A stretch of 64,000 bases of DNA from Phytoseiulus persimilis (lineage: Eukaryota; Arthropoda; Arachnida; Mesostigmata; Phytoseiidae), in contig CM075104.1 in the NCBI GenBank assembly GCA_037576195.1, positions 26,366,211-26,430,210 on the forward strand. Reading direction: 5' to 3'. Below, one piece after another: positions 16,323-54,600 of this stretch. Position numbers and translations under genes: made by a program. How positions within the stretch are numbered: the stretch's first letter is position 1; the number at the start of each line of letters is the position of its first letter. The notes below the pieces were generated by a model that was given only the letters and a program-made list of their open reading frames with translations, was not told where the DNA came from and ran no database searches.

Positions 16323-18674
16323 TGCTGAGGCAGGAAATGCTCAATCGGAAAATCGACTTCTGACATCGTTGGTCCATGTCGCCCTGTCATGGAACTCGAA
16401 TGCGGGGTAGCTCGTTTTTCTGTCTCATCGGAAGGGGAACCGGGAAGGCGGTAACGAGGCGACAATGAACGACATCGAAGGTGTGTGGAGAGGGCTTCCC
16501 GCGAAGATATATTTTCAATCATGTTCTGCGGCTCCCCAATCCATCCGAGTGGGGAATTCTTCCTTCCCCGAAATAGGAACGCGCGCTTGTCCGGGAGAAT
16601 CCATGGAGCTGAAGGATCCAGAGAGCGAGCTTGGAATCGGACGTTCGATGTCCCCCGGTCTCCGGACTCAGACGTTCGCCGCCCTCTCTCTGTCAGCTTC
16701 CATCCTGTGCCGGTAATAGACGACTCACTCCATATCCGAAATAAGTTGACGCAGCGCGAAGCAGCTCAGCGCTGTTCTCGGTTCACACCCGGGGGCGAGG
16801 CCACTATCAAGTCCAAGGCCGTGTTGTCGAAGCGTCCATTCATTGTGTCCAGATCAAGCGGCGGGCCGGAGGCTCATATTCGGGACGCATGAAAGATAAT
16901 CGCGTGACAGCCGTCGTGCCGCTCTCGCCTTCTAGAACGGAAATTACCCGAACAAAAGCGGAAGCTTATTGCTCGTTGTCCTGTGGCATTCCTTGCCGCG
17001 ACGGGCGAATCGAGCCAGCCGACCAGTTCGCCAAATTACGCCGTGAACCAGTTGTAATGATACCGGATGCGTGAGATGAGATGATGTGTTTGTTGAGAAC
17101 TTTTGGGCACGCACCCTGTTGCTTGCTCCTTGGGCTGGATTCCCGTGCTTGTCACACAGCACCGCTGGGATAGAATCGGAGCTTCCCTTGTGGTCCAGCT
17201 CGGGCCCGCGCTGTCCCTCATCGAATCTCCCTGGTCATCGGCCCCACATCATCATAACTCTCTGTGTACTTATTGTTCAAGGATGAGGGACAGAACTCCG
17301 TTTATTTTTATTGGTTCAATGCTGAGCGATACAAAACGACGCTCGGTCGTGCAAGCGAGCGAATCGTTCCCGGCAGTTTACATTTCTCTTTCATCGGAAA
17401 GAAACTACGCGTCAAGTCTCGCATGTTTTCCTGCTAGGCCAACACAGAGCTGTCCCTGCTTGTGTCAAGCGAATTAACCTCGGTGTTGCCCGCTCCGCCG
17501 CGTTAGCGTTCGGATGGCGACTATTCCTCAAGAAAAAATGGTCCGCTCGTCATGGCCCGTTCTCGTCGTAACGCACCAGGAGAGTTCACGCTGCACGCAG
17601 ACGCCACGAAGCTGAAGGTGGTGTGCAAGTCGAATTGCGTCGTCCATTCATGCCGCAAAATTTGAGCCTGTTTCGCAACCACGCAGATCGATGAGGATCA
17701 ACTCTAACGGCACCGGGATACCTCAGGACAGCGGGTCGAGATGCGATTCGATCCACTGAGATCAGATGGAAGGCTGCTGCTGACCCTTGTGGCGAAACTC
17801 GAGCCCTTCGACCTCCGAGTTTGTATACGTAGCTTCGGTGGGCATGATTTTGCAAGAGAACTGACATCCCGAATCAGAGCATCTGACGAAAAGGCTCGAA
17901 GTTCAAAGCCGTCGTGACAGGGCACGCTAACGCGGCTTTGGCCGTCATCGCTTGTGACAGCCTGCCACGCGAACAGTTTCGATGAACTGGCACTTATTAA
18001 GCTGGAAGCGAAGGAAAGCTATCCTGATATTGGACGCCCTCCTCGGACCTGGCTCGTGTTCTTTGCCCTACACTCGCTCGCTTCTTCTCATATATTCATC
18101 TGAGCCTTAGGTCCCGTCATCCTGAGCGGGCCGAGCCAAGTTTCAACGCATTGTTTTCCGCAGGAGTCTCTGACTACGAAGATAGTTTCAAAAGGAGACC
18201 AGGACGACCTTCGATGGACCGCCGCTTACCGCCGCTCGAACAGAGCATTAGTCATCGCCCGTTTCCTGGGGCGAGCCATACGCAAGGCGTCCCGTTGATC
18301 CACACGAACCGTCCGAGCGGGCATGCTGCCTGCACGGAGTCACTCGTGCAATCCCGACGGTTCGGCGGAGCCCTCCCCGTTCGTGAGTCGCTGAGAATGG
18401 CGACATCGACAAGTCGTCGTCGTCCTGACCCTCGGAAGCGTTTGATTGAAGCGAGACGACCATGATTGGTTGAGTCACCGTTTCGCGTCGAATCTTCGGC
18501 CTTCGGTTGTCAACAGTCCTTCGCGCAGCTGACCCACCGCCGGCTAATCAATGCGCGGCCGAGAGCGAACGAGCGGGCGGTTGGAGCAGCCAAACGGGAA
18601 GCGTGAGAGAATAGCGTGCGACTGCCGGAGCTGCCGCTGTCTTTCATTGAAACCGTGGTCCCAAATATCAGAAA
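16323..18674. other. Unique sequence, nothing assigned
   Basis: The open frames include 135 codons (16485-16892) and 124 codons (17103-17477), both on the plus strand, without recognisable motifs. I see no repeat of note in this interval. Confidence 0.5.
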
Positions 18675-18707
18675 CTCAATCAATTAATTATCGGAGAATC
18701 AATTAGT
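18675..18707. promoter_or_regulatory. Cluster of homeodomain-type TAATTA/CAATTA cores
   Basis: Within 33 bases there are a CAATTAATTA block and a second CAATTA, in a local AT-rich island. TAATTA and CAATTA are typical core sites for homeodomain proteins. Such short words are also common by chance in AT-rich DNA, so a regulatory role is only a suggestion. Confidence 0.2.
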
Positions 18708-19718
18708 CTCCTACTAGCAGCAGCAGCCGCCGCTGCGGCAGCTACCGTAAAACTTTCCCAATAATCATATCCTTCCCGTCCGTCATTCACCTCCGCCATT
18801 CTTCGCTTGTTACCGATCGGACTGCATTCAAGGGTCATTCCCGCGGTCGGTCGAACTAGCTCTCTTCATTGGAGTATCTTCCACTCCGTCGTATCGTTCC
18901 ATGACTCCGTCGAGTCCTTGCTGTTCTCGAAGCCTCGGAACACCGCGGAACGGCTAGTTTCCAAGTTCCGACTCAACCGATGGAATCGCCGTGTTAAATC
19001 CAATAGATCAAACCTCAGTTCCCATGATCATAAACTCTGAGCTCGATGAGCGTTTGCTCTCCCGAAGGGTTCCCTATCCAGAGGAGTAGGGCTGTGCAAA
19101 TAATCGATGCCCATCCAGTGTTCCTCCTACTCCTCTGAGAATGTATTCCCCGTGAGCGAGCTCAGGGCCGCAGTGAGGATCGCGCGCATTTCCACCACAC
19201 GGAGCTAGCTTTCCTTCACTTGTTGCGGGAAGCCGTTTAATCCTGAAGACTGAATAACCGGTCATTAGGCTTCAGAAGTGCCACAGTGACAGAGAGTCGA
19301 GTTTTCGGAGATTAATACCTCCCTTGACACTCTGGCGAGCCAAGCTCCGTCGAGACCGGACGCAGGTGGAATGGAGCTCGCCGACTTCGTAAAGAACCCG
19401 ACGACAGTTGTAGCTGAAAGAGCATCAGCAGTCGCCGTCATCGCGGCTCCCTCCGACGCTGGTGCCACATCAGCTCTATTACGATAAGACATACTGCCAC
19501 AAGGCCCACAGTATCGTCGATCGACACGGGAGTGCCCGCCGCCGAAGGGGACGAAAAGGGGCAATGGGTTTTTTTTTTGGGTCGCCATCAGGTGGTACCA
19601 AAGAGATCGCACTTGCATCGCTCTCCTGGGACTTGACTATTCCAGAGCCCGGTAGTCCTCCTTCGATTTTTCCAATGGCAAATACCGTCTTGGGACCTTC
19701 TCGCTGCGAGCACTCCCG
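18708..19718. other. Unique sequence with a short CAG tract
   Basis: A short CAG/CCG tract (about 18715-18745) with self-complementary GCAGC and GCTGC words opens this stretch. A T10 run lies at 19569-19578. Open frames stay below 120 codons, and no gene is recognised. Confidence 0.5.
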
Positions 19719-19840
19719 AGCAAGCAAGCAAGCAACCAACCAGCGACCGAACCAGCCAGCCAGACAGCAAGTGAAGCAGCCAGTCAAGCTCTGCCCCTCG
19801 TCGCCCGACCGACCTGGCAAGCGAGCGAGCGAGCGACTCG
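19719..19840. repeat. Long drifting tetranucleotide tract
   Basis: The clearest example of its kind, about 120 bases long. AAGC units pass into AACC, then CAGC, ACAG, AGTC, CCGA and finally GAGC, always in 4-nt steps. The 154-codon plus-strand frame across it (19462-19926) and the 113-codon minus-strand frame are open largely because the repeat units contain no stop in any phase. Confidence 0.7.
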
Positions 19841-19979
19841 CCTACTGCCTGAAGAAGCAAGTGGGAAACGAGCAGGCCAGTCAGCAGAGCTTTTTGAATA
19901 GGTGCCAGTGGAAATCATTGAACTGAAGTTGAGTGCTTTTCTATTTGGTTCGTGCTCGATAGGAGACGAACTCCCCCAA

Positions 19980-20041
19980 TGACTGACTCAGTGGCTGACT
20001 GGCTGACGTAGTGACTCGCTTCGTCTGTCTGTCCGTCGTCG
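19980..20041. repeat. GACT/GGCT/GTCT drifting tetranucleotide tract
   Basis: GACT units change to GGCT and GACG, then to GTCT and GTCC, with 4-nt spacing nearly kept. It lies 140 bases from the previous tract and may be part of the same original array. Confidence 0.6.
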
Positions 20042-20791
20042 GAGGATCCGGCGCCACCTGAGAGAACGGTACGAGCAGCAACGAAACTCTGAGGGGATCC
20101 AGCCATCGTGCTCGATGGCCGATCTGGTTTTCGACAGGACACAGACCAGCTCGGCCCCACCTGCGCTTCTCCTGTTCCGGCTGAAAGCCCCGGAATGAAG
20201 ACTCCGTGCGAGTTTGGAGAGAACCGATATGCTCAGCCAGCCGCTGACAAAGCCTCGGCGATTCCGTTAACCCTCGTGTTTGTTTCCGTCGCTGCGTCCC
20301 TCACGACGAGTCGCCGAATTCGCGCGACAAGCACGCGGGCAGCCCCGCGCCAGCCGAGCAGCTCGAAAGGTTCGCGTGTCTCCAATGTGTGCCTCGAGGC
20401 TTAGCCGCGGCACGCCTTCGAGGTTCCCGTGCTCTCGCCCGGTAGGCGTCGTTCATTCATCGAAGGTTACGTCTCCCACCCTGCGTAAACGACTCCAGAA
20501 AACTACGCAAGCCTTTCGTCAAGACACCGCTCGCTCAGTTGTCCAATCGGATGCTTCGTAACAGCGCTGATTATTGGTGTCGCGTGAGTTGCGAATCGCG
20601 CCGAGTTCCTCGATCGAATGCTTTCAAGCGAACTCTTCCCGGGAGTCTCACTTTAGCCAAAGTATAACAGTAACTCGTTGATTATCAGTTTATTGCCGTT
20701 TTGAGTTTGGGCCAGACAGCAGCTCAGAACACGGGTCGCACTCACCAGCGACTCTATTCCGGCCCCCACGTGCTCACCGCGAGCCTTATGA
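20042..20791. other. Unique sequence, nothing recognised
   Basis: Open frames are below 100 codons. No structured repeat or RNA gene is visible. Confidence 0.5.
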
Positions 20792-20838
20792 CCCGCTCGC
20801 CCGCCGATCCATCTGCTCGCCCGTCCGCCCGCCCGCCT
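20792..20838. repeat. GCTC/CCGC drifting tetranucleotide tract
   Basis: CTCG, CCGC and GTCC units in 4-nt register, ending with a CGCT group. Confidence 0.5.
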
Positions 20839-20908
20839 TCCTGGATTCGCTCGCTGCTTCGCTCCGACGTCGAGTCATTAGGCAACCGTTTCTGAGGATT
20901 CATTGTGA

Positions 20909-20926
20909 CCCCCCCCCCCCCCCCCC
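20909..20926 (+). repeat. C18 homopolymer
   Basis: Eighteen consecutive C. Together with G28 at 9.63 kb, C11 at 9.51 kb and C14 at 37.78 kb it shows that long G/C mononucleotide runs recur in this genome. Confidence 0.85.
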
Positions 20927-21341
20927 TCCCACCGTCGCATCGCAGATGTGGCCGAAGGTGGCAACTTGTTCATGCAGAGAACCAATTCAATCGTCTGTGG
21001 CTCCGACCGAAGCTACAGAACAGAATCTGCAGCTGAGGAGCGGACGAAGCGGAATCTCCACGAGGCCTTATCGAACATAAACTATATCTGAGAACACAAC
21101 GCTGGACGGAGGACCAAGTTATGGGACTGTGGACTCGGTCAACACCGCTGAAACGCAGGTCTCCATGGTCGGCGCTTCTGGCCAAGCCTTGGCTGTCAAG
21201 CCGCAGAGGCCACGCGATCACCGTGAGCCACGACGACACTCAGCAACAACAACCATACCGACTACAAAGTATTCAGTGACAGGGGCTCGTACGTTTCTCA
21301 ATTCACGACGAGCGGTCGCATCACAAAGCAAGGAGATTAAC
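20927..21341. other. Unique sequence left of the duplicated block
   Basis: No gene is recognised. Its last bases directly abut the left end of the 5.9-kb copy and do not match the sequence found just before the second copy, which fixes the left boundary of the repeat at 21342. Confidence 0.6.
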
Positions 21342-21380
21342 TAATCTACGGCGGCGGAAAGATACCGCACGCGCGCGAAC

Positions 21381-21403
21381 GCACGCACGCACGCATGCAT
21401 GCC
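21381..21403. repeat. (ACGC)n to (ATGC) tetranucleotide tract, copy 1
   Basis: Perfect ACGC units that end as ATGC, so the unit drifts at its edge. The same tract is at 27282-27304 in copy 2. Similar short ACGC tracts occur at 37594 and 41489. Confidence 0.75.
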
Positions 21404-21590
21404 TGCGGACAGGGGTGAGAGATCTCTGAATAGATCCTCGTCGACCTTTCCCCGCTTCTGTTCTTTCTTGCTTCCACTCGCTTCTGGCCCCTCGGCCACC
21501 GACTCCTCTCGCCTTTTCTTTCAGAGATTCAGCCCGCTGGCCTGTCCGCCATGCACGCACCCAAGTCGGCAGACTCGCGGGCGAGCGGCA

Positions 21591-21607
21591 TTTTTTTTTT
21601 TTTTTTT
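21591..21607 (+). repeat. T17 homopolymer (T16 in copy 2)
   Basis: The run is one base longer than its counterpart at 27492-27507. It is one of only two differences seen between the copies, and of the type expected from sequencing error or allelic slippage. Confidence 0.85.
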
Positions 21608-21735
21608 CTAGCAGTGCTGTTTTGCTCTGTGAAAGCGAGCGGGCTTCGTCGTCCGAGTCCAAGCATGCAAGGGCCGACCTTGCTGCCTCCATGCTTCCTG
21701 GGCCGGCGTGTCAGCTTGGCACGCTGTAAGCCAAG

Positions 21736-21777
21736 CAGGCAGGCGGGCGGGCGGGCGGGCGGGCGTTCGGTCGGTCT
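21736..21777. repeat. AGGC to GGGC to GGTC tetranucleotide tract, copy 1
   Basis: Two AGGC-like units, five GGGC-like units, then GTTC and GGTC units in 4-nt register. It is identical in copy 2 at 27636-27677. Confidence 0.65.
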
Positions 21778-21810
21778 CTCAATCTTTCTCTCGCTTGCTG
21801 ACTCCATTGT

Positions 21811-24800
21811 GTGGAGCTGAGTCGAGCTCCGCTGGACCAGCCAACCGTTCGGCCAACGTTCAAGCAGTCAGCACTCGGCCGAAGAAAAAACACGAAGAAA
21901 GCTGAACGCGAGCGCGTTAGAGGTGCGGTTCAGACACTCTCCTCTGATTCTCTCTCCCCTGATGTAGACGCCCTGTTCCAAGTGTTGGAGTTTTTCTGCC
22001 GCTTTTGTCTCGAGTCGGCTGCCCCTCGACGTCGTCGTCCGCCCCCATTGCAGCCATGCTCCAACGCTACCAACAGCCGGCATCCTGTCAGTGCCGCGGA
22101 AGCTCGAGGGCAACCGGCGGAACGGCCTCGTCGTGTCTTATTCGAATCCCGCGAGGCTCTTCCTTCCTTTTTCCCCTTTTTTCTCGCCGCCGCCGCTCCG
22201 ACTTTTCGCTCGATCCTGCAGGAACCGCCGACAGCGAAGCTCGCGGGCGGACGCGCAGCTTTCTGGCGGATCGGCAACGGGATGTGTGGTACTGGGTAGT
22301 GTTCGTCGCTAGCTTCGCGCATCCTCGGAATACGCATGCTATGTATGAAGCAACTCCCCATGCCCCTGCTCCGCAGGTATTTCGCTGGAACTGCATCGAC
22401 GAGAGGAAGGCGCTGAGGGCCTTGACGAGCACGGAGGGAGAAGAGCAAATCTTCGCTCTCGTTATCCTTTCGATTTTCGCGCGATTTCATTTTGTGATAA
22501 AACAATATCGAGGCTGGCGTACTCACTAAGTTGTCAAACCACCAAGTTGTTACCGTGCCTCGCACTCTCACTGAGCCCGTGCGAGTACGGTTCTTGAATG
22601 GCCTGGAAACCTCTCAGGCCTACGAGAGCGGTTTCCTCCGCATGAGCTCTCTGACAGAGCCGCCGCGGAAAGGGTTCCTCTGTGCTCTCTGATTGGTCGC
22701 TGGTGCGAGCGATTTTAATTACAGTGCTTGTTGACACTCTTTCAGATAATAAGAAACACCCTCGAGCAGCTGTGTACACCCATGCTGTACCTGTTGCTAA
22801 CCTCACTTTCCGACCATTAGGCTCGCTATCCGCGCGTCTCAGCGTCTACGACGGCTTCCAAAGATTCAAGAGCCGTTCATCCATGGATATGTGGGATACG
22901 TGTCACCAATCCATGATTTCGATCTGATCTCGTCCCCAGCTTTCCCCCTGACTCCTCATGGGATTCAGCCGCTGACTCTCGTCGACTCCGGAATCGATGT
23001 CGGCATGAACCCGATACCGGCTGCCAGACAGGACTCAGCAGTTTAGCTCTCTTCATGAACAAACCGATCGACTAGGACTTCGGCCTGCCATTAGAGGTTA
23101 CACCAGACCAAGAAACACGAAATCGGGGGTGGATGCCGAATCGTTTCACAATATTTTTTTTCCTCAAGAAAGGCCTTGATTAGAGTCTTTGAGCTCGCCT
23201 CTAATTAGCCCGCTGGAAGAACTGGTTTTGGCTTCACGTCAAACATGACAGCGATGAGTATTGTCTTTGCGACCCCTACTGCAACAACAGATTGTTAGGC
23301 TTGTTTCCCTTTCTGCTTCCACCGGAGCTGCTTTGTTTCCTCATCATCTTACTCGGTCTGCAAACGCTCCCATCTCGGGAGGAACTCAAAGTACAGTGCG
23401 CTGAGTGGCGGGGGAGCGTACGAGCTGGCACACATATACAGGTTGGCAAAGAGACGAGGAGCAAGCAAACCTACAAGTTGACACCGGATGTGCTTCGGTG
23501 GTTTTGACTTCCGTTTCCTCCAGGCGCATTTCGCCGTTACAACCGACCAAGGCAGCAGCGATACAGCTAGCGGGCCAGGCAGTCAGGCAGGCAAACAATT
23601 CTTATTCACCTAGCGCTCGTTTGCGATCCTTCTCCGCGGACTCCGCGACCGCCGAAATTCTCAGAACGAACATTCCACGTCGTTCCTCCGACGAACGAGA
23701 GTAATCGACGAAGTGAAACCATCGAACTCCAGAACTCGCGCTCGATATGAACTCGTGGGGTTCTGAGATCTAGTCGAAGTTCCGGGTTACTCATTCAGAT
23801 TTAAGGAATAATTTGACCCGGGCGCTGGATTCCGTGGCTGGAGCTCTTTAACGAATTGCTGCTTTGTCAATTATGCAAACGAGTACACGCGATTTCCACG
23901 AGAAGGTTTGTTCGATTCCGGTAAGTTTTGCATTTTATTAGACCACGTGCGAGTGTTGAATTCTCTCGCCGTGCATTGGCAGCACAGTCGTCGAACAACT
24001 GTTGCGGATTCTGCCCATCAGGAACGGGAAAGCTCGCGCCGCTTTCTTTGTATCGCTCCCAGATCCTAATTGAAGTCGGTACCTGGACAAAGTGGAAGCC
24101 GTTTTTCGAGGGAGCGTAGCGGTAACAGGACGCGGAGTGGCGGTAGGATTTGCTCGATGTGGTACGAGAGCCGCAAGCGCCAATTCCGGCTGAGCTATTA
24201 TTCTTCCACGGATGGAAATCCAAGCCGAAAGTACCAGAGGTTTCCATGTACGAGTATGGAGTCGTGCAAACCATAGCCCGAAGAACTGTTATCGAAGAAA
24301 TTGGTGAGTTGGTACGAATTCGAGCCGAGATGATCTCCGCTTCGCGTTCTAGGCGGCCGAGCCGCGAACCAGTGTGGTCATTCCGACACTGGGAGCTCGT
24401 TGTTGAGAAATTATGATGTGAGTCCGAAAAAAATGATTTTGCGCCGCTCTCGGCACTCATGGCACGTGGTTGAACCACTTCTGTATGTTGTCGCAATTCG
24501 AGCGTTGTTGTTGGAAATGTAAGGACAGAACGTTCCCAGGAACCACCTTGTTCCGATGCGGGCTTCTCTGCTCGTTGTCCTGTGGGGTGCTCTGTCGATT
24601 GACCACTCCAGTGTCTCTCCTCATATGTGTGTGCAATATTCGTCATTGTAGCTCGAGTCTCCGCCTAGTGTAGAGCATATGGTCGCGCGACGGCTCGGAT
24701 ACGTGATTCCAAGAAGTGGACTCGGGACGTGTTTCAGAATATCTTCTTCCCTTCCGAGAAAGGGGCCACTGATGAGTGGACGAAATTCCAGCCAAAAGTT

Positions 24801-26261
24801 TCGCACAACTAGTCGCGCGATTGGACAGCCGCAGACCAACGCCGGAGCTCACTAACCAGAACTGGTGTGTGGCTCAAAGTACGTCAAATATAATCATAAT
24901 TCTGGGCTGCTGCTACTACTTCGGATGGTCATCACGGAGTAGGCGCGGAATGGACGAACTTGGACAGTGAATACTTCATCAGCTTGTCCCACGGCTTTTG
25001 TCGCGGAGCGAAATTCCTCGGAGCCGGCATCAAGCTATGCAACGAAAGCAGCAAAATATGCAGACAGAATGCTCGTCACAAGCTAAGCGAGCTCTAATTC
25101 CCACCGCTCCCGAGATGTTTCTCGAGGAGACACCGTTCCTCGTGCGGAGCCCACTGACGGCTGCTCGCGGATCCTCATGTGTGAGTTTGGTCTAGTTGCA
25201 GCTCTACGACCACTCCAAGCGCGGAGCTATCTGAAGACTGGCTCGTCACCCCCAAGTTCATCCTTGCCTCTGCTGTGGAGTGGTTGGCCCACATCAGGTC
25301 CGAGCGACGCCCTCCGTCGAATCACTCCATCCAAAGGCGCATGGCCACCACTGATGTTCGGCGATGATCGAAGCGATGAAAATGCCTTCATCATGGGACG
25401 AGCCCGAGAGAATCGAATAGCACCCAAATATCGTCGACCTCGCCGCCACCGTGGAGCAGTTGCCGATGCTAGAATGATCAACCGTGCAAACTTCGCAAAT
25501 TAATTACACCTCGAGGAATTCTTAGTTTGTACGTATATCGGAAGCTTCGTGGAGGGAACCGAACTGAACTCGCCAGCTGGGGCTACTACACACCAGCTGG
25601 TAATCTGAAGTCTATTAGGCAGCCCACTACGTATGGAACTTTCTAAAAAGGCTTGTGGTATCCAAGTCACGTATGCAGCTCCTATGCCTTCGATAAGAAC
25701 GCCGATTAAGGTGAGCAGCCGTCCGTCCACCCGTCCGGCTGCCAGCGAGCGGGCCAGCTTGCTCGGAGGAGAAGCGAACAACACTTGATGGAACTTTCCT
25801 CGTGTTCACACTCGACGTTTCGCCGGTCCCCCGTCCGCTGCCAACCGGCATTGCACCAGGAAACGCGTCTGCTCTCTGACGTCGACGTCGCCGATAAATC
25901 GCGTGAAGGTTCAGACGATGGATATCAATCGACGACGAGGAGCGATCCACCCACAAACTTACCCCTGAACGTATTTCGTTGACCTCGCCGGAAATATGGA
26001 AGGGACGACATCGACGGAGTCGCACCTGCGGAGGCTCGACGGCCCGCTCCGTTCGAATCGAGAATCAGGGTTTACGGGCGGCTCGGCTCCCAGACCCTAG
26101 CACGGTTTCAGTCATTTCCTCTTTGGCTCTTTGAGGAGAAAACTCCCAGTTTAGAGACGATGAGGTGAGTGATGTAGTAGCTTTGTCGACGTAAAATAGA
26201 TCTCGGCGAGGAATAACTCGGGGTCCACTCGGCTCGGATGGCGTCGAAATCCGGTTCAGAT
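21811..26261. other. Interior of copy 1, no gene recognised
   Basis: The longest open frame is 259 codons on the minus strand (24646-23867), with no family resemblance that I can see. Two frames of 213 (minus, 22571-21930) and 174 codons (plus, 22005-22529) overlap antiparallel to each other. The interval also has a T8 run at about 23.15 kb and a few drifting 4-nt stretches (23.56 and 25.73 kb). Splice-like GGTGAG words exist, but I could not assemble a convincing exon chain. All of this is repeated in copy 2. Confidence 0.5.
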
Positions 26262-26298
26262 AAAAGCGATCAGTGTGCCGAGAAATCCGATCGCTTTT
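26262..26298. other. 10-bp perfect hairpin with 17-nt loop, copy 1
   Basis: The arm at 26262-26271 (AAAAGCGATC) is the exact reverse complement of 26289-26298. The same element lies at 32162-32198 in copy 2. The right arm ends in TTTT followed by one more T, so on the plus strand it resembles a stem with a U-run, though in a eukaryote that need not mean termination. Confidence 0.6.
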
Positions 26299-27241
26299 TA
26301 GGGCACGGGGAGGGTTGCTCTGATTCCCGTCCCTGCGTTCGACGCGGTACGACCGAATCTTGCGATTCTCCGCAATGATTTCCCCTACTCCCGCTATTCC
26401 GCTGTGCATGCAAATGTGCAATCATCGTATCATCTCCGCTAGCGGCTTCTTCGCTGGCTAGCCCCGATAACACACACTCGCTCCGGCGCTCACTCAAACA
26501 CACACGCGAAGGCGCTCCAGACGACTCGAGTCAACGGTCGAAAACGTAGGGTAAGAGCAAGACGGAACGGAAAGATGAGGAAGAGAAAGCAATCTGGATA
26601 CGAGAGAGGGAGTGAACGAGAGAGAGATGAGAACGAACGAGGACTCTCTCGCATACAACCGACCCCGTTGGTCGACTGCTCTCGCTCTCCTTCGCCGGGT
26701 AAACTCGCTCAAAAATTTTCCCAACGAATCGTTCCTACCTTGAATGGCTCTTTATCTCGGGAGCGAGGGACGGAGTCGCTGTCGCTCGACTAATTCTCTC
26801 CGGAATATTTCTGTTCCGATCTGGAGCGCAATTTCGGTCGACGACAAATGGCTCTGCGACGCCTAGTTGAGGACACTCGCGATCTCTGTTTGCCGTCCGG
26901 GATGTCTTTCGCGGAGGCTTAAAAACGGCAACCTCGATGATTGCGTATGGAGGGAAGGAGCGTTTTCGGAAATCGGGGCTTCGGTTCCGGAGAATGGCGA
27001 TTTCTCCCGGCCGAGGAAGTGTGATGCTCTGGATTCATAATCTTCTTTGGCCATCGCTATCCTTATCGCAGAGAAGAAGTTCCAGGCGGACAGCATCGAC
27101 AACGCACCGCAATCAGGTGTTGTGGAAGAGGATGCACAGTTTTTTCAGCGGCCGAACCGCCCAAATCAGCTCGCAAGGAAAGCGAAGACGACTTTTTGTG
27201 GGCGTCGAGCCAGGATAGGAACGAGATTTGGAGCGGGTGAG
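26299..27241. other. Right end of copy 1
   Basis: Contains a purine-rich stretch with GAGA repeats at about 26.57-26.63 kb, where the copies differ by one GA unit. No gene is recognised. The matching part of copy 2 is 32199-33139. Confidence 0.55.
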
Positions 27242-27242
27242 N
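27242..27242. other. Single N at the junction of the two copies
   Basis: The only ambiguous base in the window. It sits exactly between the end of copy 1 and the start of copy 2, which is where an assembler or scaffolder would place a minimal gap between two contigs. Confidence 0.98.
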
Positions 27243-30200
27243 TAATCTACGGCGGCGGAAAGATACCGCACGCGCGCGAACGCACGCACGCACGCATGCA
27301 TGCCTGCGGACAGGGGTGAGAGATCTCTGAATAGATCCTCGTCGACCTTTCCCCGCTTCTGTTCTTTCTTGCTTCCACTCGCTTCTGGCCCCTCGGCCAC
27401 CGACTCCTCTCGCCTTTTCTTTCAGAGATTCAGCCCGCTGGCCTGTCCGCCATGCACGCACCCAAGTCGGCAGACTCGCGGGCGAGCGGCATTTTTTTTT
27501 TTTTTTTCTAGCAGTGCTGTTTTGCTCTGTGAAAGCGAGCGGGCTTCGTCGTCCGAGTCCAAGCATGCAAGGGCCGACCTTGCTGCCTCCATGCTTCCTG
27601 GGCCGGCGTGTCAGCTTGGCACGCTGTAAGCCAAGCAGGCAGGCGGGCGGGCGGGCGGGCGGGCGTTCGGTCGGTCTCTCAATCTTTCTCTCGCTTGCTG
27701 ACTCCATTGTGTGGAGCTGAGTCGAGCTCCGCTGGACCAGCCAACCGTTCGGCCAACGTTCAAGCAGTCAGCACTCGGCCGAAGAAAAAACACGAAGAAA
27801 GCTGAACGCGAGCGCGTTAGAGGTGCGGTTCAGACACTCTCCTCTGATTCTCTCTCCCCTGATGTAGACGCCCTGTTCCAAGTGTTGGAGTTTTTCTGCC
27901 GCTTTTGTCTCGAGTCGGCTGCCCCTCGACGTCGTCGTCCGCCCCCATTGCAGCCATGCTCCAACGCTACCAACAGCCGGCATCCTGTCAGTGCCGCGGA
28001 AGCTCGAGGGCAACCGGCGGAACGGCCTCGTCGTGTCTTATTCGAATCCCGCGAGGCTCTTCCTTCCTTTTTCCCCTTTTTTCTCGCCGCCGCCGCTCCG
28101 ACTTTTCGCTCGATCCTGCAGGAACCGCCGACAGCGAAGCTCGCGGGCGGACGCGCAGCTTTCTGGCGGATCGGCAACGGGATGTGTGGTACTGGGTAGT
28201 GTTCGTCGCTAGCTTCGCGCATCCTCGGAATACGCATGCTATGTATGAAGCAACTCCCCATGCCCCTGCTCCGCAGGTATTTCGCTGGAACTGCATCGAC
28301 GAGAGGAAGGCGCTGAGGGCCTTGACGAGCACGGAGGGAGAAGAGCAAATCTTCGCTCTCGTTATCCTTTCGATTTTCGCGCGATTTCATTTTGTGATAA
28401 AACAATATCGAGGCTGGCGTACTCACTAAGTTGTCAAACCACCAAGTTGTTACCGTGCCTCGCACTCTCACTGAGCCCGTGCGAGTACGGTTCTTGAATG
28501 GCCTGGAAACCTCTCAGGCCTACGAGAGCGGTTTCCTCCGCATGAGCTCTCTGACAGAGCCGCCGCGGAAAGGGTTCCTCTGTGCTCTCTGATTGGTCGC
28601 TGGTGCGAGCGATTTTAATTACAGTGCTTGTTGACACTCTTTCAGATAATAAGAAACACCCTCGAGCAGCTGTGTACACCCATGCTGTACCTGTTGCTAA
28701 CCTCACTTTCCGACCATTAGGCTCGCTATCCGCGCGTCTCAGCGTCTACGACGGCTTCCAAAGATTCAAGAGCCGTTCATCCATGGATATGTGGGATACG
28801 TGTCACCAATCCATGATTTCGATCTGATCTCGTCCCCAGCTTTCCCCCTGACTCCTCATGGGATTCAGCCGCTGACTCTCGTCGACTCCGGAATCGATGT
28901 CGGCATGAACCCGATACCGGCTGCCAGACAGGACTCAGCAGTTTAGCTCTCTTCATGAACAAACCGATCGACTAGGACTTCGGCCTGCCATTAGAGGTTA
29001 CACCAGACCAAGAAACACGAAATCGGGGGTGGATGCCGAATCGTTTCACAATATTTTTTTTCCTCAAGAAAGGCCTTGATTAGAGTCTTTGAGCTCGCCT
29101 CTAATTAGCCCGCTGGAAGAACTGGTTTTGGCTTCACGTCAAACATGACAGCGATGAGTATTGTCTTTGCGACCCCTACTGCAACAACAGATTGTTAGGC
29201 TTGTTTCCCTTTCTGCTTCCACCGGAGCTGCTTTGTTTCCTCATCATCTTACTCGGTCTGCAAACGCTCCCATCTCGGGAGGAACTCAAAGTACAGTGCG
29301 CTGAGTGGCGGGGGAGCGTACGAGCTGGCACACATATACAGGTTGGCAAAGAGACGAGGAGCAAGCAAACCTACAAGTTGACACCGGATGTGCTTCGGTG
29401 GTTTTGACTTCCGTTTCCTCCAGGCGCATTTCGCCGTTACAACCGACCAAGGCAGCAGCGATACAGCTAGCGGGCCAGGCAGTCAGGCAGGCAAACAATT
29501 CTTATTCACCTAGCGCTCGTTTGCGATCCTTCTCCGCGGACTCCGCGACCGCCGAAATTCTCAGAACGAACATTCCACGTCGTTCCTCCGACGAACGAGA
29601 GTAATCGACGAAGTGAAACCATCGAACTCCAGAACTCGCGCTCGATATGAACTCGTGGGGTTCTGAGATCTAGTCGAAGTTCCGGGTTACTCATTCAGAT
29701 TTAAGGAATAATTTGACCCGGGCGCTGGATTCCGTGGCTGGAGCTCTTTAACGAATTGCTGCTTTGTCAATTATGCAAACGAGTACACGCGATTTCCACG
29801 AGAAGGTTTGTTCGATTCCGGTAAGTTTTGCATTTTATTAGACCACGTGCGAGTGTTGAATTCTCTCGCCGTGCATTGGCAGCACAGTCGTCGAACAACT
29901 GTTGCGGATTCTGCCCATCAGGAACGGGAAAGCTCGCGCCGCTTTCTTTGTATCGCTCCCAGATCCTAATTGAAGTCGGTACCTGGACAAAGTGGAAGCC
30001 GTTTTTCGAGGGAGCGTAGCGGTAACAGGACGCGGAGTGGCGGTAGGATTTGCTCGATGTGGTACGAGAGCCGCAAGCGCCAATTCCGGCTGAGCTATTA
30101 TTCTTCCACGGATGGAAATCCAAGCCGAAAGTACCAGAGGTTTCCATGTACGAGTATGGAGTCGTGCAAACCATAGCCCGAAGAACTGTTATCGAAGAAA

Positions 30201-33139
30201 TTGGTGAGTTGGTACGAATTCGAGCCGAGATGATCTCCGCTTCGCGTTCTAGGCGGCCGAGCCGCGAACCAGTGTGGTCATTCCGACACTGGGAGCTCGT
30301 TGTTGAGAAATTATGATGTGAGTCCGAAAAAAATGATTTTGCGCCGCTCTCGGCACTCATGGCACGTGGTTGAACCACTTCTGTATGTTGTCGCAATTCG
30401 AGCGTTGTTGTTGGAAATGTAAGGACAGAACGTTCCCAGGAACCACCTTGTTCCGATGCGGGCTTCTCTGCTCGTTGTCCTGTGGGGTGCTCTGTCGATT
30501 GACCACTCCAGTGTCTCTCCTCATATGTGTGTGCAATATTCGTCATTGTAGCTCGAGTCTCCGCCTAGTGTAGAGCATATGGTCGCGCGACGGCTCGGAT
30601 ACGTGATTCCAAGAAGTGGACTCGGGACGTGTTTCAGAATATCTTCTTCCCTTCCGAGAAAGGGGCCACTGATGAGTGGACGAAATTCCAGCCAAAAGTT
30701 TCGCACAACTAGTCGCGCGATTGGACAGCCGCAGACCAACGCCGGAGCTCACTAACCAGAACTGGTGTGTGGCTCAAAGTACGTCAAATATAATCATAAT
30801 TCTGGGCTGCTGCTACTACTTCGGATGGTCATCACGGAGTAGGCGCGGAATGGACGAACTTGGACAGTGAATACTTCATCAGCTTGTCCCACGGCTTTTG
30901 TCGCGGAGCGAAATTCCTCGGAGCCGGCATCAAGCTATGCAACGAAAGCAGCAAAATATGCAGACAGAATGCTCGTCACAAGCTAAGCGAGCTCTAATTC
31001 CCACCGCTCCCGAGATGTTTCTCGAGGAGACACCGTTCCTCGTGCGGAGCCCACTGACGGCTGCTCGCGGATCCTCATGTGTGAGTTTGGTCTAGTTGCA
31101 GCTCTACGACCACTCCAAGCGCGGAGCTATCTGAAGACTGGCTCGTCACCCCCAAGTTCATCCTTGCCTCTGCTGTGGAGTGGTTGGCCCACATCAGGTC
31201 CGAGCGACGCCCTCCGTCGAATCACTCCATCCAAAGGCGCATGGCCACCACTGATGTTCGGCGATGATCGAAGCGATGAAAATGCCTTCATCATGGGACG
31301 AGCCCGAGAGAATCGAATAGCACCCAAATATCGTCGACCTCGCCGCCACCGTGGAGCAGTTGCCGATGCTAGAATGATCAACCGTGCAAACTTCGCAAAT
31401 TAATTACACCTCGAGGAATTCTTAGTTTGTACGTATATCGGAAGCTTCGTGGAGGGAACCGAACTGAACTCGCCAGCTGGGGCTACTACACACCAGCTGG
31501 TAATCTGAAGTCTATTAGGCAGCCCACTACGTATGGAACTTTCTAAAAAGGCTTGTGGTATCCAAGTCACGTATGCAGCTCCTATGCCTTCGATAAGAAC
31601 GCCGATTAAGGTGAGCAGCCGTCCGTCCACCCGTCCGGCTGCCAGCGAGCGGGCCAGCTTGCTCGGAGGAGAAGCGAACAACACTTGATGGAACTTTCCT
31701 CGTGTTCACACTCGACGTTTCGCCGGTCCCCCGTCCGCTGCCAACCGGCATTGCACCAGGAAACGCGTCTGCTCTCTGACGTCGACGTCGCCGATAAATC
31801 GCGTGAAGGTTCAGACGATGGATATCAATCGACGACGAGGAGCGATCCACCCACAAACTTACCCCTGAACGTATTTCGTTGACCTCGCCGGAAATATGGA
31901 AGGGACGACATCGACGGAGTCGCACCTGCGGAGGCTCGACGGCCCGCTCCGTTCGAATCGAGAATCAGGGTTTACGGGCGGCTCGGCTCCCAGACCCTAG
32001 CACGGTTTCAGTCATTTCCTCTTTGGCTCTTTGAGGAGAAAACTCCCAGTTTAGAGACGATGAGGTGAGTGATGTAGTAGCTTTGTCGACGTAAAATAGA
32101 TCTCGGCGAGGAATAACTCGGGGTCCACTCGGCTCGGATGGCGTCGAAATCCGGTTCAGATAAAAGCGATCAGTGTGCCGAGAAATCCGATCGCTTTTTA
32201 GGGCACGGGGAGGGTTGCTCTGATTCCCGTCCCTGCGTTCGACGCGGTACGACCGAATCTTGCGATTCTCCGCAATGATTTCCCCTACTCCCGCTATTCC
32301 GCTGTGCATGCAAATGTGCAATCATCGTATCATCTCCGCTAGCGGCTTCTTCGCTGGCTAGCCCCGATAACACACACTCGCTCCGGCGCTCACTCAAACA
32401 CACACGCGAAGGCGCTCCAGACGACTCGAGTCAACGGTCGAAAACGTAGGGTAAGAGCAAGACGGAACGGAAAGATGAGGAAGAGAAAGCAATCTGGATA
32501 CGAGAGAGGGAGTGAACGAGAGAGATGAGAACGAACGAGGACTCTCTCGCATACAACCGACCCCGTTGGTCGACTGCTCTCGCTCTCCTTCGCCGGGTAA
32601 ACTCGCTCAAAAATTTTCCCAACGAATCGTTCCTACCTTGAATGGCTCTTTATCTCGGGAGCGAGGGACGGAGTCGCTGTCGCTCGACTAATTCTCTCCG
32701 GAATATTTCTGTTCCGATCTGGAGCGCAATTTCGGTCGACGACAAATGGCTCTGCGACGCCTAGTTGAGGACACTCGCGATCTCTGTTTGCCGTCCGGGA
32801 TGTCTTTCGCGGAGGCTTAAAAACGGCAACCTCGATGATTGCGTATGGAGGGAAGGAGCGTTTTCGGAAATCGGGGCTTCGGTTCCGGAGAATGGCGATT
32901 TCTCCCGGCCGAGGAAGTGTGATGCTCTGGATTCATAATCTTCTTTGGCCATCGCTATCCTTATCGCAGAGAAGAAGTTCCAGGCGGACAGCATCGACAA
33001 CGCACCGCAATCAGGTGTTGTGGAAGAGGATGCACAGTTTTTTCAGCGGCCGAACCGCCCAAATCAGCTCGCAAGGAAAGCGAAGACGACTTTTTGTGGG
33101 CGTCGAGCCAGGATAGGAACGAGATTTGGAGCGGGTGAG
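27243..33139 (+). repeat. 5.9-kb duplicated block, copy 2
   Basis: The same sequence and content as copy 1: offset 5901 up to the poly-T run, 5900 from there to the GA repeat, and 5898 after it. It includes the counterpart of the 259-codon minus-strand frame (30546-29767), the ACGC tract (27282-27304), T16 (27492-27507), the GGGC tract (27636-27677) and the hairpin (32162-32198). The sequence continues past 33139 without a break into unique DNA. Confidence 0.95.
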
Positions 33140-34223
33140 CTCGCCTGGCCAGCTGAGGCTTGGTCGTGGTGGAGGGTGGCCGACAAGCCAGCGGGCTGAG
33201 AAACGAGGAGCGGAGGTACAAATGGCAGAGGACACCCCTTCTCTGCCTACTCCTTTATCTTTCAACGACCGCAGACACCGTCGTCCCTCAACCCCTCGAC
33301 TCGGGGCTCGGCTCCAGTCGAAGCCGACTGCGGTCGGTACTTTGTCGAGCGACCCACCGAGAAACGAAAATTGTTTGACAGTGCTCTTTCATCAGATCTC
33401 TTTCTGTGTGTCCCTTTTCCTAGAAGCGCGAACCGTGAGCTTCTCGACGTTTGCGCGAATTCATTATTCACAAACAAGAACGGAGTAGGCTGAAACTCGC
33501 AGTTTCTCCCGGCATCTGAAAACACGACCCAAGATTTAAACAACTCCACTGCTCAGAGGCGAGCAACTCCCACCTCTTTTCGCTAGGGATAACTTGCTCG
33601 AGCGAGCGTCTGAGAGCGTCTTCTTCAATTTCTGATTCCCCCATCCTCTTTTAATTCACCTTGTTGTCCCTTTCTCACAAGTGGATTCTCTCTTTTCCCC
33701 AGGAAAAGAAAATCGTAAGACAGAACTCGAGTCTGCAGATTTCTCTATCGCGAAGAAGGGGCATTTGTTATACATTTAAGATCTACCCGGGGACTGATGG
33801 CCTACTCGCCCACTGTTCTTGCAAGCGTTGGGAAATACCCGACTCCTTTCCAGAGTCCAAGAGCTCCGAGAGAACATTAATGCCACGACTCGGGAGACCC
33901 CGGCAGCGTGCTCTCGGTGACAAGTACTTTGAGCAGAAGGCGCACGTCGTCTGTGCCGGATTCATTCGGTTGGGGTGCAGTTGATTAACAAACCGCGCTC
34001 ATAACTCTTGCGTGCTCAAGGTGGGGCTCCACGGGAATTCTGACGCTACTGAGACGCCCAGAGTCTCGTCGATAAATTTCTCGAGAATCGCACGAGCAAG
34101 GGCTTGCAGAGAACGCTGAAGAAGCCCGTCAGCGCCATAAGTGTCCGATTCGATGTATTAGTCGGGGATGATGACATTAACTCGCGAAATCCTTTCAAGG
34201 CTATTCTTCGTTCGGATTCCCTC
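33140..34223. other. Unique sequence right of the duplicated block
   Basis: Open frames reach 120 codons on the plus strand (33126-33488, partly in copy 2). No gene is recognised. A plus-strand frame near 33.75 kb carries the word GICYTF, which recalls DEG/ENaC channels, but no flanking support exists, so it is not called. Confidence 0.5.
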
Positions 34224-34242
34224 CATCATCATCATCATCATC
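34224..34242. repeat. (CAT)6 microsatellite
   Basis: A perfect CAT trinucleotide tract of six units. Confidence 0.85.
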
Positions 34243-37200
34243 CTGATCAAGGTTTGGCAAGGAGCTCCATTACGCTGACAGGTTTTAGCCCGAGGAGTCG
34301 TTCAAAGATCGGGCCGCCGTGAGCAGCGTCAAATAGACGCAGCTCTTTCTGAAGGGCTCGTTTTGCGAAAGGTTGTCGTCCTTTTCAAAAAGCTGCCGCG
34401 CTCTCCTTTTTTCTCGTGCCAAAGCTATTCAGAATGTGAAAGCTCGGCCCCGTGTGCCCACAGTAGGTCTCACGTTGTTTCACTCGACACAAGACGGTGC
34501 CTGCGGTGTGATCGGCCAGTATAGGGGGAAATGTGATAGGTTCCCCCTCGGGAGGCAACGAGACGTCGTTGTTCGGAGGTAATATTGATATTCCGGAGTC
34601 TGTCTCGAGTCCATCATGACGGGGGTTCGAGGACTGGAGCTCGCTCGGGAGTTCAGTGTGCGTCATATTGCCGAGGAGTCCGAAGTTCCTCACTGGTCCT
34701 CCAATGGTTCAGGTGAGTGTCGACGTCCTCGGAAACCCAATTCAACGACGAATCGCCATAGTTCTCCTCCCCCGGGATCGCACTGCTTCCTTGGTTTAGG
34801 AAGAAGATTTACCTTCGTATTCCCCAGCATCGAAGGTGGACTTTCTCCACCACCATTCCCAGAATATGGAGAGGGCACAGGGCGAGTTCGGCGCTGGGAA
34901 AATATAAACATATGTCCGTTCTTTGAGGCTCGAGGCTTCACTGCGAAATCCGAGTAGAGGCGTTTCCGACGCAACTTTTTCAGCCTTTCGCCGATCGGAA
35001 TCCAAGAACACGGCATTCCATTCATGATTCTATAGAAGTTCTCAGTCATTCCGGGAGCCGAAGAAGTTTTCAGAACATGTCGTCCAACCTCTTTGTTTTT
35101 TTCTCCGCTCCGGACGCGAGGAGGCAGCGATCGCACAGAACTGTGAGAGCCTCGTCACTCACAAAGAGTCTGGAGAACGTGAACGAGTGGGAATTGATAT
35201 TCCGGAGCACGGAACCATCGGGACCAACACCACCTTCGAACAACGCCTGAGACACGTTAAGCCGTCCTGGATTGAGAACAGGGCTCGATTCGTAGTCGGC
35301 GGAAGACGAATCTCGAAAACTTTTCCTCCAACGAGTTCCCAGGAACGAAGATTGACGTCGCTTCCCATACGTTGGTGACTTACTGCTTGTGCCTGGTTTG
35401 CGCAGCAACGTGCAATCAGCATGCAAATTGCTGCAAACTATGTCCACAAAGTTGTATTGGCTCGTGGCCGACCGAGTGAACGATGCGGACTGTCTGACCT
35501 TTTGCTCGTCCGCCTGCCAGCGTTCGTTCGTTTCCTCCATGACCGTGATTGTAAACCCCTTAGCTCGGGCACGCGGTCTGCCCGCCGCGCTCCCCTGAGA
35601 TCTGATATCGGAATTAGTTCTCTCTGCGCCACCGAGCCATCACCTGCCGGCCAGCACCGAACTTCCGTTGCCACAATGAGTCCTCCGCATATTTCAATTC
35701 CGTCCCAGTTAGCCGAACAAATGCACTGATAATGCGACGAGGGAACAACATCCCGTGTTCGGCTGATTCATTGGCCAGCTGATGGAGGATCAGATTGTTA
35801 CACAGGCCGACGGTTTGGCCCAAAAAAAAAATCACAGGCGCTTCGGGGGATACCGACGCAGGTGGTGACTTGGTTTTTCCCGAATCGTTGTAGTCAACGA
35901 GTCCCGTGGAGCGTTAGCAGCTCAAGCTCCCAGGCAAAATCATCCTGAAAGCGCTCGTCGATCTGGAATTTCCGGAGCGACAGGTCCGCGAAAACGGTAA
36001 ATCACCAAGATGCTGGTCACACAAAGATCATTCAATAGTTCAGCTCCTGGCTCGGCGCAGTCGAGAAGTATTTGCAGGAAACATGGGACGTGGAGCGTAT
36101 GGTTTTCGAAAAGTCCTCCGATGGAGGACTGCAGGGTATCACGATCGGCATTTCGAATATCACTCCTGATGAGAACTCGCGCTGGTTCACGATAGAGTTG
36201 CTCCAGAAGTGGAAACCCCAACTTCTCGACTCCGTGAACAAGCCTCAAGCCCTTCGATGTCCACGGCAGAGGAACAATCCATTCCCAACATGGAGTAAGC
36301 GGTTGTAATCGCTTAGTAAGGGAGCTGTGCGCGGGCAAGATTCATCGTTTCCGCCTCACGGAATCAGGGAGGACTCATTCGCTCTATCTAAGAAGATTTC
36401 GGCTTTCTGATACCGCATTCATTTCATTGAGGTCCGCCTTCGGAACATTGCGGATAAACGACGTCACAATTCGAACCGATTGTCGGAAGCATGTATCGAT
36501 CACAGTGCTCGTGTTTCTTCTCGGATCACCCGCCGGGGCGTTGACCAGCGACGTCATATGGGTGTGGTGTTTAGACGTCACATCAGCAAAGGTACCGCCT
36601 TTGCCCAGTTCCAATTTCCCGCTTTCGAATTTGAATCCCCTGGTCCAAAGTGGGAGACGTCTCAACGAGTGTTTAGAGTGCGTTACTGGGTGTGCCTCGG
36701 ATTGTTCCCTCGAAGCTGATCGTGTTGGATGGCATTCTTTGTTCTCGCGTCCTCAGTTCACTGTTGGTAGCGCAGAATTTTTAGCAAGAGCACTCCTGGG
36801 TCGGGAGTTCAGAGGTGGTAAACATCAGTTAGTTCCATGACATAATTCATGAGTTCGCCTGTTTTGAGCCGGTCGGGTAAGACGCGCCCTCGCGGCCGAG
36901 AGCTGCTACAACTGGTCAGAGTGAGTCTCTAATCATGTTTTACTCGCCTCACCCACGACATACTGCTTCGGCAGGAAAAACGATTCAAACAAGTGAGGAG
37001 ACATTTTTCCGCAAAAACATCTTCAAGTAGGAAAGGCCAAGAACATCAACGAGCAGTCATTCAGAGCCGATGCAGAAACACACCGTCTGACGCGAGCGTG
37101 CTCGCTCCATGTACAGTTGGCTTCCTCACTCGCTTTCTCCCTAAGAGGACCAATACTTGAAGGACACAGAGACAGGGGACAAAAATCCTGTCGTTCAGCC

Positions 37201-50913: not shown

Positions 50914-51621
50914 TTGCACGTTGTGTTTAGTGGTGTCGGAGGCAGCTTTCAACCACAGCTTCTGGTTGTGTTCTCGGGCCGGCGGGGAAGATCGTCGGTA
51001 AAAATCCAAGACCGCAAAGCAAACCCTCCTCCCCGCGAACACTCTCTCGCAGACGTACTCTCACGACAAAAGTCTGCCCGTCTGGCCTCGAGGGAGCCAG
51101 CCGGCGAGCTGGCTGTTGAGGCCGCATCGCCGAACACAAAAACTTTTGCCTGCGGCTGTTGGTGCGAGTGGAAAATAAATAATTTAATGAGGAAATCGGC
51201 CGAGAGAAGTTCGCGTGCCTCGCAACATTCGATTCCATCTATCCCAGCCATGAGCGGTTGCGTGGCCAGTGGCATGAGCCGTGTCCCAAGCCGCGAGGAA
51301 TTCCGCACGGGGCGGACTGATCTCGCCGCTGACGACGGAAAATCATCCGGGGCAACAGGTCTTCCTGGGCTTGAAACCTTCTTGGACCACTTGCGTTTCA
51401 ACCGAAACCTCCGCTCTGATACATGTACCCGCTCGAGTATCAGAGGCATTGTAGCCGGTAGACGGCCTTCGTGGCCGCAATGCCGTCGCTTCTCATCTTC
51501 CACCTTGACATTCTGCAGTTTTGATCGTTTTGGGATGAAATTGGCGGAGAGGTCGAGTGTCGGCCCTTGTCCAGGACTGACGACGATCAAGTATGGCAAC
51601 CCTACCCTGACGTTTCTCTGA
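50914..51621. other. Antiparallel pair of long open frames (235 and 216 codons)
   Basis: A 235-codon plus-strand frame and a 216-codon minus-strand frame (51599-50949) cover almost the same bases. Such pairs arise when both stops and their complements are avoided, which can reflect coding DNA with G/C third positions or simply local composition. Neither peptide shows a recognised domain. The plus frame has one Cys-Gly-Cys cluster and no transmembrane stretch. I do not call either a gene. Confidence 0.2.
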
Positions 51622-54600
51622 CAGGGAGGGAGCGGGGAGGGGGCTGTCCTCGTTCGGGAGATGCTTTCCGCGACATCACTCCACGATTCTCAACAATCGA
51701 GCGATGGCATCCCAGTCGGGGCCCTGAAGGGGTTGATCGATTGGTATCGAAACAACGAATCCGGTCACTGGATTCTCGAGCAATTAAAGAATGATTTCCT
51801 GCAAACAAAATGACGCTCATAGAGACTTTCGTCATCTGTGGAGTCTCAAGAGGATGCGGGAAACGCAATTTCAAACTTCGAGGCCACGCTGACAGATAGG
51901 CGAGCGGTTAGTACTTCGTTTGCCAGTTTGTGGGTCTGCGCCTCCGGCTGCCCGTCAACTCCCTCGCTTGCCGTGGGCCTTTTGGAGCCTCGGGAGACCT
52001 TTAACGACTTGCCAGTTGACTTTACAGGAACGGGCTTCTTCCAGAGCAAATACAACGCACCGAAAGCGTATACAAGCAGCAGACTACAAGCGAAGTTCTG
52101 ACTGTTTCTTACCCGCGTCGGTCGTTCGCCGTCGACGTTAGCACTGGTCCACTGCGTTTCGGATTCATTTATCTTTGCTTTTGAAACCCGTCTTTCCGTT
52201 GAAGGACAGCTCACCGCATAACGCAGCCGCCGCACAATGCCGCCGCACCAAGACTCGGCGGCCTTCGAGCCGGGACGGGCGGCAAAGAACTCCCTCGGCC
52301 GGCGGCTCCTCATGACGCTAGCGGACGCATCCCTTAATCTGGGGGAGGCTCTGTCATTAAAAAGCGTGACAGCACTGAAATCATTTGGAATCATGTTTTT
52401 ACACGAGTTCCAAACAAATGGTTCGCGTGCAAGATGAAAAGCTGCAGCGCGTGCATGGGTTCAGGCGCGAGCGGCTCTTCGAGTCACCGGTGCAGACCTC
52501 CAGAGCCAGGATACCAAACGAGACGAGATCGGAGGCGAGTAGTTCGGATGATTCCTACAACTTGGTGACTCAACGCTGGCTTTGGCTCCGAGAGCGTTTG
52601 TCGAGGAAGTGGAGACTTCATGACCTCCGTTAGTCGCTTCGAGGAACACGGATGAGTTATGACGCCACGTAGGTAGTTCGCACGCGCGCGATGATTGTTC
52701 GTGCGGGAACAGCAGCCCCCGAACATTCGTAACTGTGACCGTGCGGTGTTGCAGTATCTACATAAGGTTCATTATATCTCGGTGGCGCCACGCCCTTGCG
52801 CATTCTTGCTTTGCACGCGACGCCCCAATTCACGGATTGGATGGATGCTCAGCGTGCAGCCCTGGTGAGCCCGAGCTTTCCTCAGGAATCTCAGCAGCGT
52901 ACTCGTGATGCTCATTGTGCCCCCACCTCTCCACAATTTCTATGTGCATGTCTCTCTAGCCGGATCGCAGCCAATCCCTCTATCGCTCGGGAATCGTCCT
53001 TCTCATCACGTCCGTGCATACCCGATCGAATATACTTGAACGAAGGCTGTCGTCGGTGTCCGGCGGCACTTGAACAGACTCCGTCCCATCCCCTCGTGTG
53101 TGAGAGAGGAAAATAATTAAAGGACTCCGTGAGATAATTGTTCGTCCCTCCCACCCACAACGGTCATAGCTTTTCGGAAGATTCAACTGCCCTGAAACAT
53201 TCATTGGCGACAGGGTGTAATTATCTGAATGGTAAATGACCGTCGACCGAAATTTGCTCGCTGATTCGGACGGGGGGAGAAGCCGAGTTCTAGTATCAAC
53301 TGGTCATCGTTTTGCGGAACAACGGCGAACGACGACGGAAACACCAGCTCATCGAGCTCGATCGATTAAGGAAACCTTTCTGGCCGGAGTGTGGCACGAG
53401 GGACACAATCGTCGGTGCGGTCATCACAGGAACGAGAACTGGGTCAGGTGGAATCAACGATTTGCCAACAAGCCCTCACATCGGTGATAACAGAGGATTC
53501 CGCAGCTGCTCCGCAGTAAGTTTTTATCTCGGGAACTCGCCGGTCGACCTATTCAGGGCAGCGGCTTATTTTCCTCGGCGTGGAGTGCACCTGCTCAGAA
53601 AGTCCAAGACTCTTGAATTCCAAGCAGGATTCAGCTCGAGCGCAGCAGAATGGACAGGAAAAGTGAACTTCAATCCCGGAATCCCCGACGAAGCCAGCGC
53701 GGCCGCCGTTTCTGCTATTCCTCGTCTCCTTCACGAGCCCCACATGAACAAGCTAGTGCTGATAACGTGAGCATCCTCCTTTCTCATTGAATTCGAAGTC
53801 AATAACACCAAACAGTTGTGTCCCATTCAGATTTGGGGGAGAGAGAACGTCGCGTCTGAGGTTTGCTCATCGCTGGTCGGGGGGCTCGTCGGCGGGGATA
53901 AGGCCTGTCACGGAACCCGGGCTGAAGCTCATCTTTCCTGCGAGGGCTTGAAACGCCACTGCAAGACTGAACTGGACCGATCCGACGACGGTGTTCTCAT
54001 GGCCTCATGTCGCTCGGCCGGACGGCTGTAGATATCGGATGAAAGGGGACGCACTCAAGGACACACGGTTCATCTTCGCCTTCATGCATAATTCACTTCG
54101 TCGACTCCTCGACCGGAAGTTTCCCCAGACTCGACGATTCCCCGAGAAGTCGTGATGTGATCAGATTGAAAAACGCGCGGCGAGATGAAGTTTTCACGCT
54201 GGATCTGAGCTGTTGATTTTGAATCGTTCGAAATCGGTTCCTGTCGGAGCGGCGGCCAGGATCTCGGTGTGAGGCTGACGCCAATGTTCCGCTCCTTGCG
54301 GCTGGGGAGAGTGGTTCCGTCGATGGGATGCTGAGGCCGATGACGATGATGGAGGAAGCGGAAGTGAATGCCGAACCCTATCGAACTGTAACGGCGCCAC
54401 CGGTTGCGGCCATCAAGCAAAAGCAACGCTTCCAGCGATCGGATCACGGAACGAAACGCGACTGTTTGATCCTGTTCCGCAGAGAGGTTCAAACATCCCA
54501 CGATTTGCGAGCGAGCCGGGGGCAAACACGCGCGAGGAAGTGAGAAAGCCACCGAGCGAACTCCGAGGATAAAACGAGGGAATAAGTTACTGTTCCTCTG

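Follow-up and report, generated by a model that had tools for sequence, protein, structure and literature searches.

The window analysed here is the whole 64,000-nt stretch G000:C4:26366211-26430210, taken from a eukaryotic assembly that totals 181 Mb in 127 contigs. Of this, 173.7 Mb is contained in four large pieces (54.7, 52.0, 38.9 and 28.1 Mb), and the GC content of the window is 54.7%. The window contains a doubled stretch with the following features.

21342-27241, forward strand: copy A, 5900 bases that close the left contig and match copy B over their full length
21591-21607, forward strand: homopolymer of T, T17 here and T16 in copy B; the next longest homopolymer in the copy measures 8 bases
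26618-26627, forward strand: GA repeat, (GA)5 here and a unit shorter in copy B; no dinucleotide run in the copy is longer
27047-27319, forward strand: ORF crossing the N, from the ORF listing
27063-27707, reverse strand: ORF of 214 aa spanning the N, from the ORF listing, a product of the join alone
27113-27400, reverse strand: ORF crossing the N, from the ORF listing
27242, no strand: one N, where the two contigs are joined; no other N occurs in the window or in the surrounding 264 kb
27243-33139, forward strand: copy B, 5897 bases that open the right contig and match copy A over their full length

BLASTN comparison of the two copies gives one single alignment over their full length (99.949% identity), with 5900 columns, no mismatches and three gap letters. 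Chance cannot account for so long and so close a match. Alignment and comparison of the edges reveal that the suffix of the left piece is the prefix of the right piece, the one ending and the other beginning exactly at an assembly gap within one scaffold, the single N. Leftward of 21342 and rightward of 33139 the repeat carries on for zero bases, and a megablast self-comparison of the window found no further repeat pairs at E 1e-5. The initial annotation, which had placed two copies of 5900 and 5897 bases head to tail around a single N and described both flanks as unique, was exact in its coordinates, lengths and order according to BLASTN; each flank is found once in the assembly, with no spill-over of the repeat past either end.

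The three gap letters represent two events, one T (21607 versus 27508) and one GA unit (26626 versus 32526). A scan of all dinucleotide motifs identifies the GA run, at 10 bases, as the longest of the copy, the next ones being 8 bases. Slips in the T run and the GA run fit independent consensus calls made from one sequence.

Copy number was assessed with three whole-assembly queries (17342-23341, 23200-25400 and 31140-37140), which jointly span both flanks and the entire copy, position 31140 in copy B corresponding to 25240 in copy A. In a search of the 181-Mb assembly that passes over simple repeats and very common words, the copy was matched at two places only, both at this locus, and the flanks once. 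None of the three queries found an unplaced contig carrying another version of the copy. In 264 kb of C4 around the locus no other N is present, and thus no second single-N join was seen, a point against reading the locus as an unmerged overlap. Self-alignment of these 264 kb (matches >300 bases, at least 85% identity, E 1e-20, low-complexity filter on) reveals only one other duplication, a 45-bp satellite array starting about 73 kb past copy B.

The satellite array itself (G000:C4:26472659-26483180, about 42 kb downstream of the window end) comprises 232.8 copies over 10.5 kb with 93% matches. Diverged relatives, of 72-82% identity and on the opposite strand, lie at the very beginning of contig C1 (L033:1-131). 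The array on C4 may be subterminal or centromeric.

For gene content, 20 of the 70 longest stop-to-stop ORFs listed (at least 135 aa, with copies A and B listed apart) were scanned against Pfam, including all six distinct listed ORFs of this size that lie wholly within the copy. None of the 20, and so none of the six, scored over a curated cut-off. Two weak matches below the cut-off were recorded, FAM193_C in the copy (27702-28196, E 0.021, scoring 15 bits where the cut-off is 27) and DUF7883 elsewhere in the window (50952-51689, E 0.089). No Rfam family reaches its gathering score in the window, and ARAGORN, run with the bacterial code, predicted no tRNA there. The coding potential of the copy is thus judged from ORFs of at least 135 aa; shorter ORFs or spliced exons may still code. 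The three listed ORFs that run over the N are spurious, being made by the join.

From the sequence, the doubled 5.9 kb most probably represents two truly overlapping contigs of the same chromosome that were set end to end and left unmerged. Substitutions are absent over the 5.9 kb, and each indel falls in a simple repeat, one in the homopolymer and one in the dinucleotide run of greatest length in the copy. By a simple reckoning, an independent gap confined to the doubled stretch would land at the junction about once in 12,000, an argument that fails if a tandem duplication is real and its contigs were broken where the assembly graph branches. Two contigs overlapping by 5.9 kb would have been put side by side in a scaffold by a program that had their order, left the overlap unmerged and wrote one N as a placeholder. 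Certain programs insert a lone n or N where overlapping contigs meet. The different lengths of the T run and the GA run would then be separate consensus calls of one sequence, and the true locus would hold one copy and be about 5.9 kb shorter than displayed. We infer a single copy in the real genome and, as the cause, a scaffolder that does not merge overlaps.

Close to the start of the copy there is a CG/CACG-rich simple repeat (about 21368-21400), and a run of 18 C lies at 20909-20926, about 415 bases to the left of copy A. Such difficult sequence may explain why the right contig starts here.

An unlikely alternative is that the 5.9 kb were truly and very recently duplicated in tandem, which would leave the same traces: reads too short to cross the repeat would yield a left-unit contig and a unit-right contig, each terminating at a branch point of the graph and linked in the scaffold by one N. 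Such a duplication predicts the same geometry, with the break exactly at the unit ends, and the position of the N therefore does not decide by itself, since breakage at branch points gives the same picture. Young copies would likewise diverge first in simple repeats. On the other hand, the event must be recent enough to leave no substitution over 5.9 kb, and the assembler must have placed the unit in both contigs; assemblers more usually output a collapsed repeat unit once. The only copy-to-copy junction found in the assembly is the one broken by the N, which favours neither reading. No bases are shared at either breakpoint, which counts weakly against a duplication; homology or microhomology is frequent at the breakpoints of true tandem duplications but not obligatory. 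Comparison of 600 bases around each outer end gives no direct match and one 23-base inverted match. What would have to be supposed is an extremely young duplication of a segment in which no genes are recognised, one that the assembler failed to cross and that may still be polymorphic in the species, and this we consider improbable.

It is very unlikely that the copies are the two haplotypes of a diploid, each at another contig end, that is, a heterotype false duplication. Differences in simple-repeat length are generally common between alleles, and the copy occurs at only two places in the assembly. In PMC9516828, false duplications of the heterotype (allelic) class are described as predominating in the three older assemblies, by an order of magnitude over the homotype class, with the hummingbird excepted. 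Against this, the absence of substitutions would require either very low local heterozygosity (a 95% upper bound of about 0.0005 per base by a simple reckoning) or a single haplotype, and one haplotype is favoured here because no substitution separates the copies. An allelic overlap is in any case a sub-case of the artefact and not other biology. An artefactual origin overall, whether same-haplotype or allelic, is highly probable. A dispersed repeat is ruled out as the origin of the copies by the two matched places in the assembly, and a satellite by TRF, which gives one small array in 15000-40000.

An uncollapsed overlap at this locus resembles the homotype (under-collapsed) false duplications in the consulted part of PMC9516828, which are near-identical neighbours separated by a gap within a scaffold, and whose copies are free of the substitutions that would mark two haplotypes. 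The reading adopted here thus belongs to the rarer class of that study. Homotype calls as described there also use read depth, k-mers and discordant pairs. Overlapping neighbour contigs that were scaffolded without a clean merge are similarly described in the excerpts consulted for LINKS, which gives negative gap estimates for overlapping contigs (PMC4524009), and for SOAPdenovo2, which inserted gaps within overlapping contigs (PMC5368935). The excerpt of PMC6733440 holds nothing bearing on single-N joins. No literature on this locus or assembly was recognised in a search that was not directed at a known species.

In all likelihood the feature is an artefact of assembly, of an ordinary and familiar type, with no biological novelty. 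The initial annotation had also read it as an unmerged overlap, and the dovetail anatomy, the lack of substitutions, the two slips and the failure to find a third place all support this as probable, not proven, because a recent tandem duplication broken at branch points leaves the same sequence. Its warning of an inflated gene count carries, as far as tested, little weight, since no protein or RNA family from Pfam or Rfam is recognised in the copy; the join does make spurious ORFs. The relevance of the locus is limited to users of this assembly and offers no biological insight. It is best taken as single-copy until reads show otherwise, and the ORFs over the N should be disregarded. Unique read mapping will fail across the doubled stretch of about 11.8 kb.

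Some further observations concern the assembly as a whole. Five contig-end pieces were inspected. One of these, G000:C4:1-1500 (L029), is all N and represents a gap or a withheld stretch; no telomere-like array is present in the other four, and one piece, L031, contains 10 CCTAA words within a longer repeat. The phytoseiid Neoseiulus cucumeris is given 173 Mb and three chromosomes in males in the consulted part of PMC6902594. A family search for COX1 gave no match. Five full-length actin matches without internal stops are present, and four such matches lie within 8.5 kb at G000:C2:50767844-50776334, three of them sharing a strand and the fourth lying on the other.
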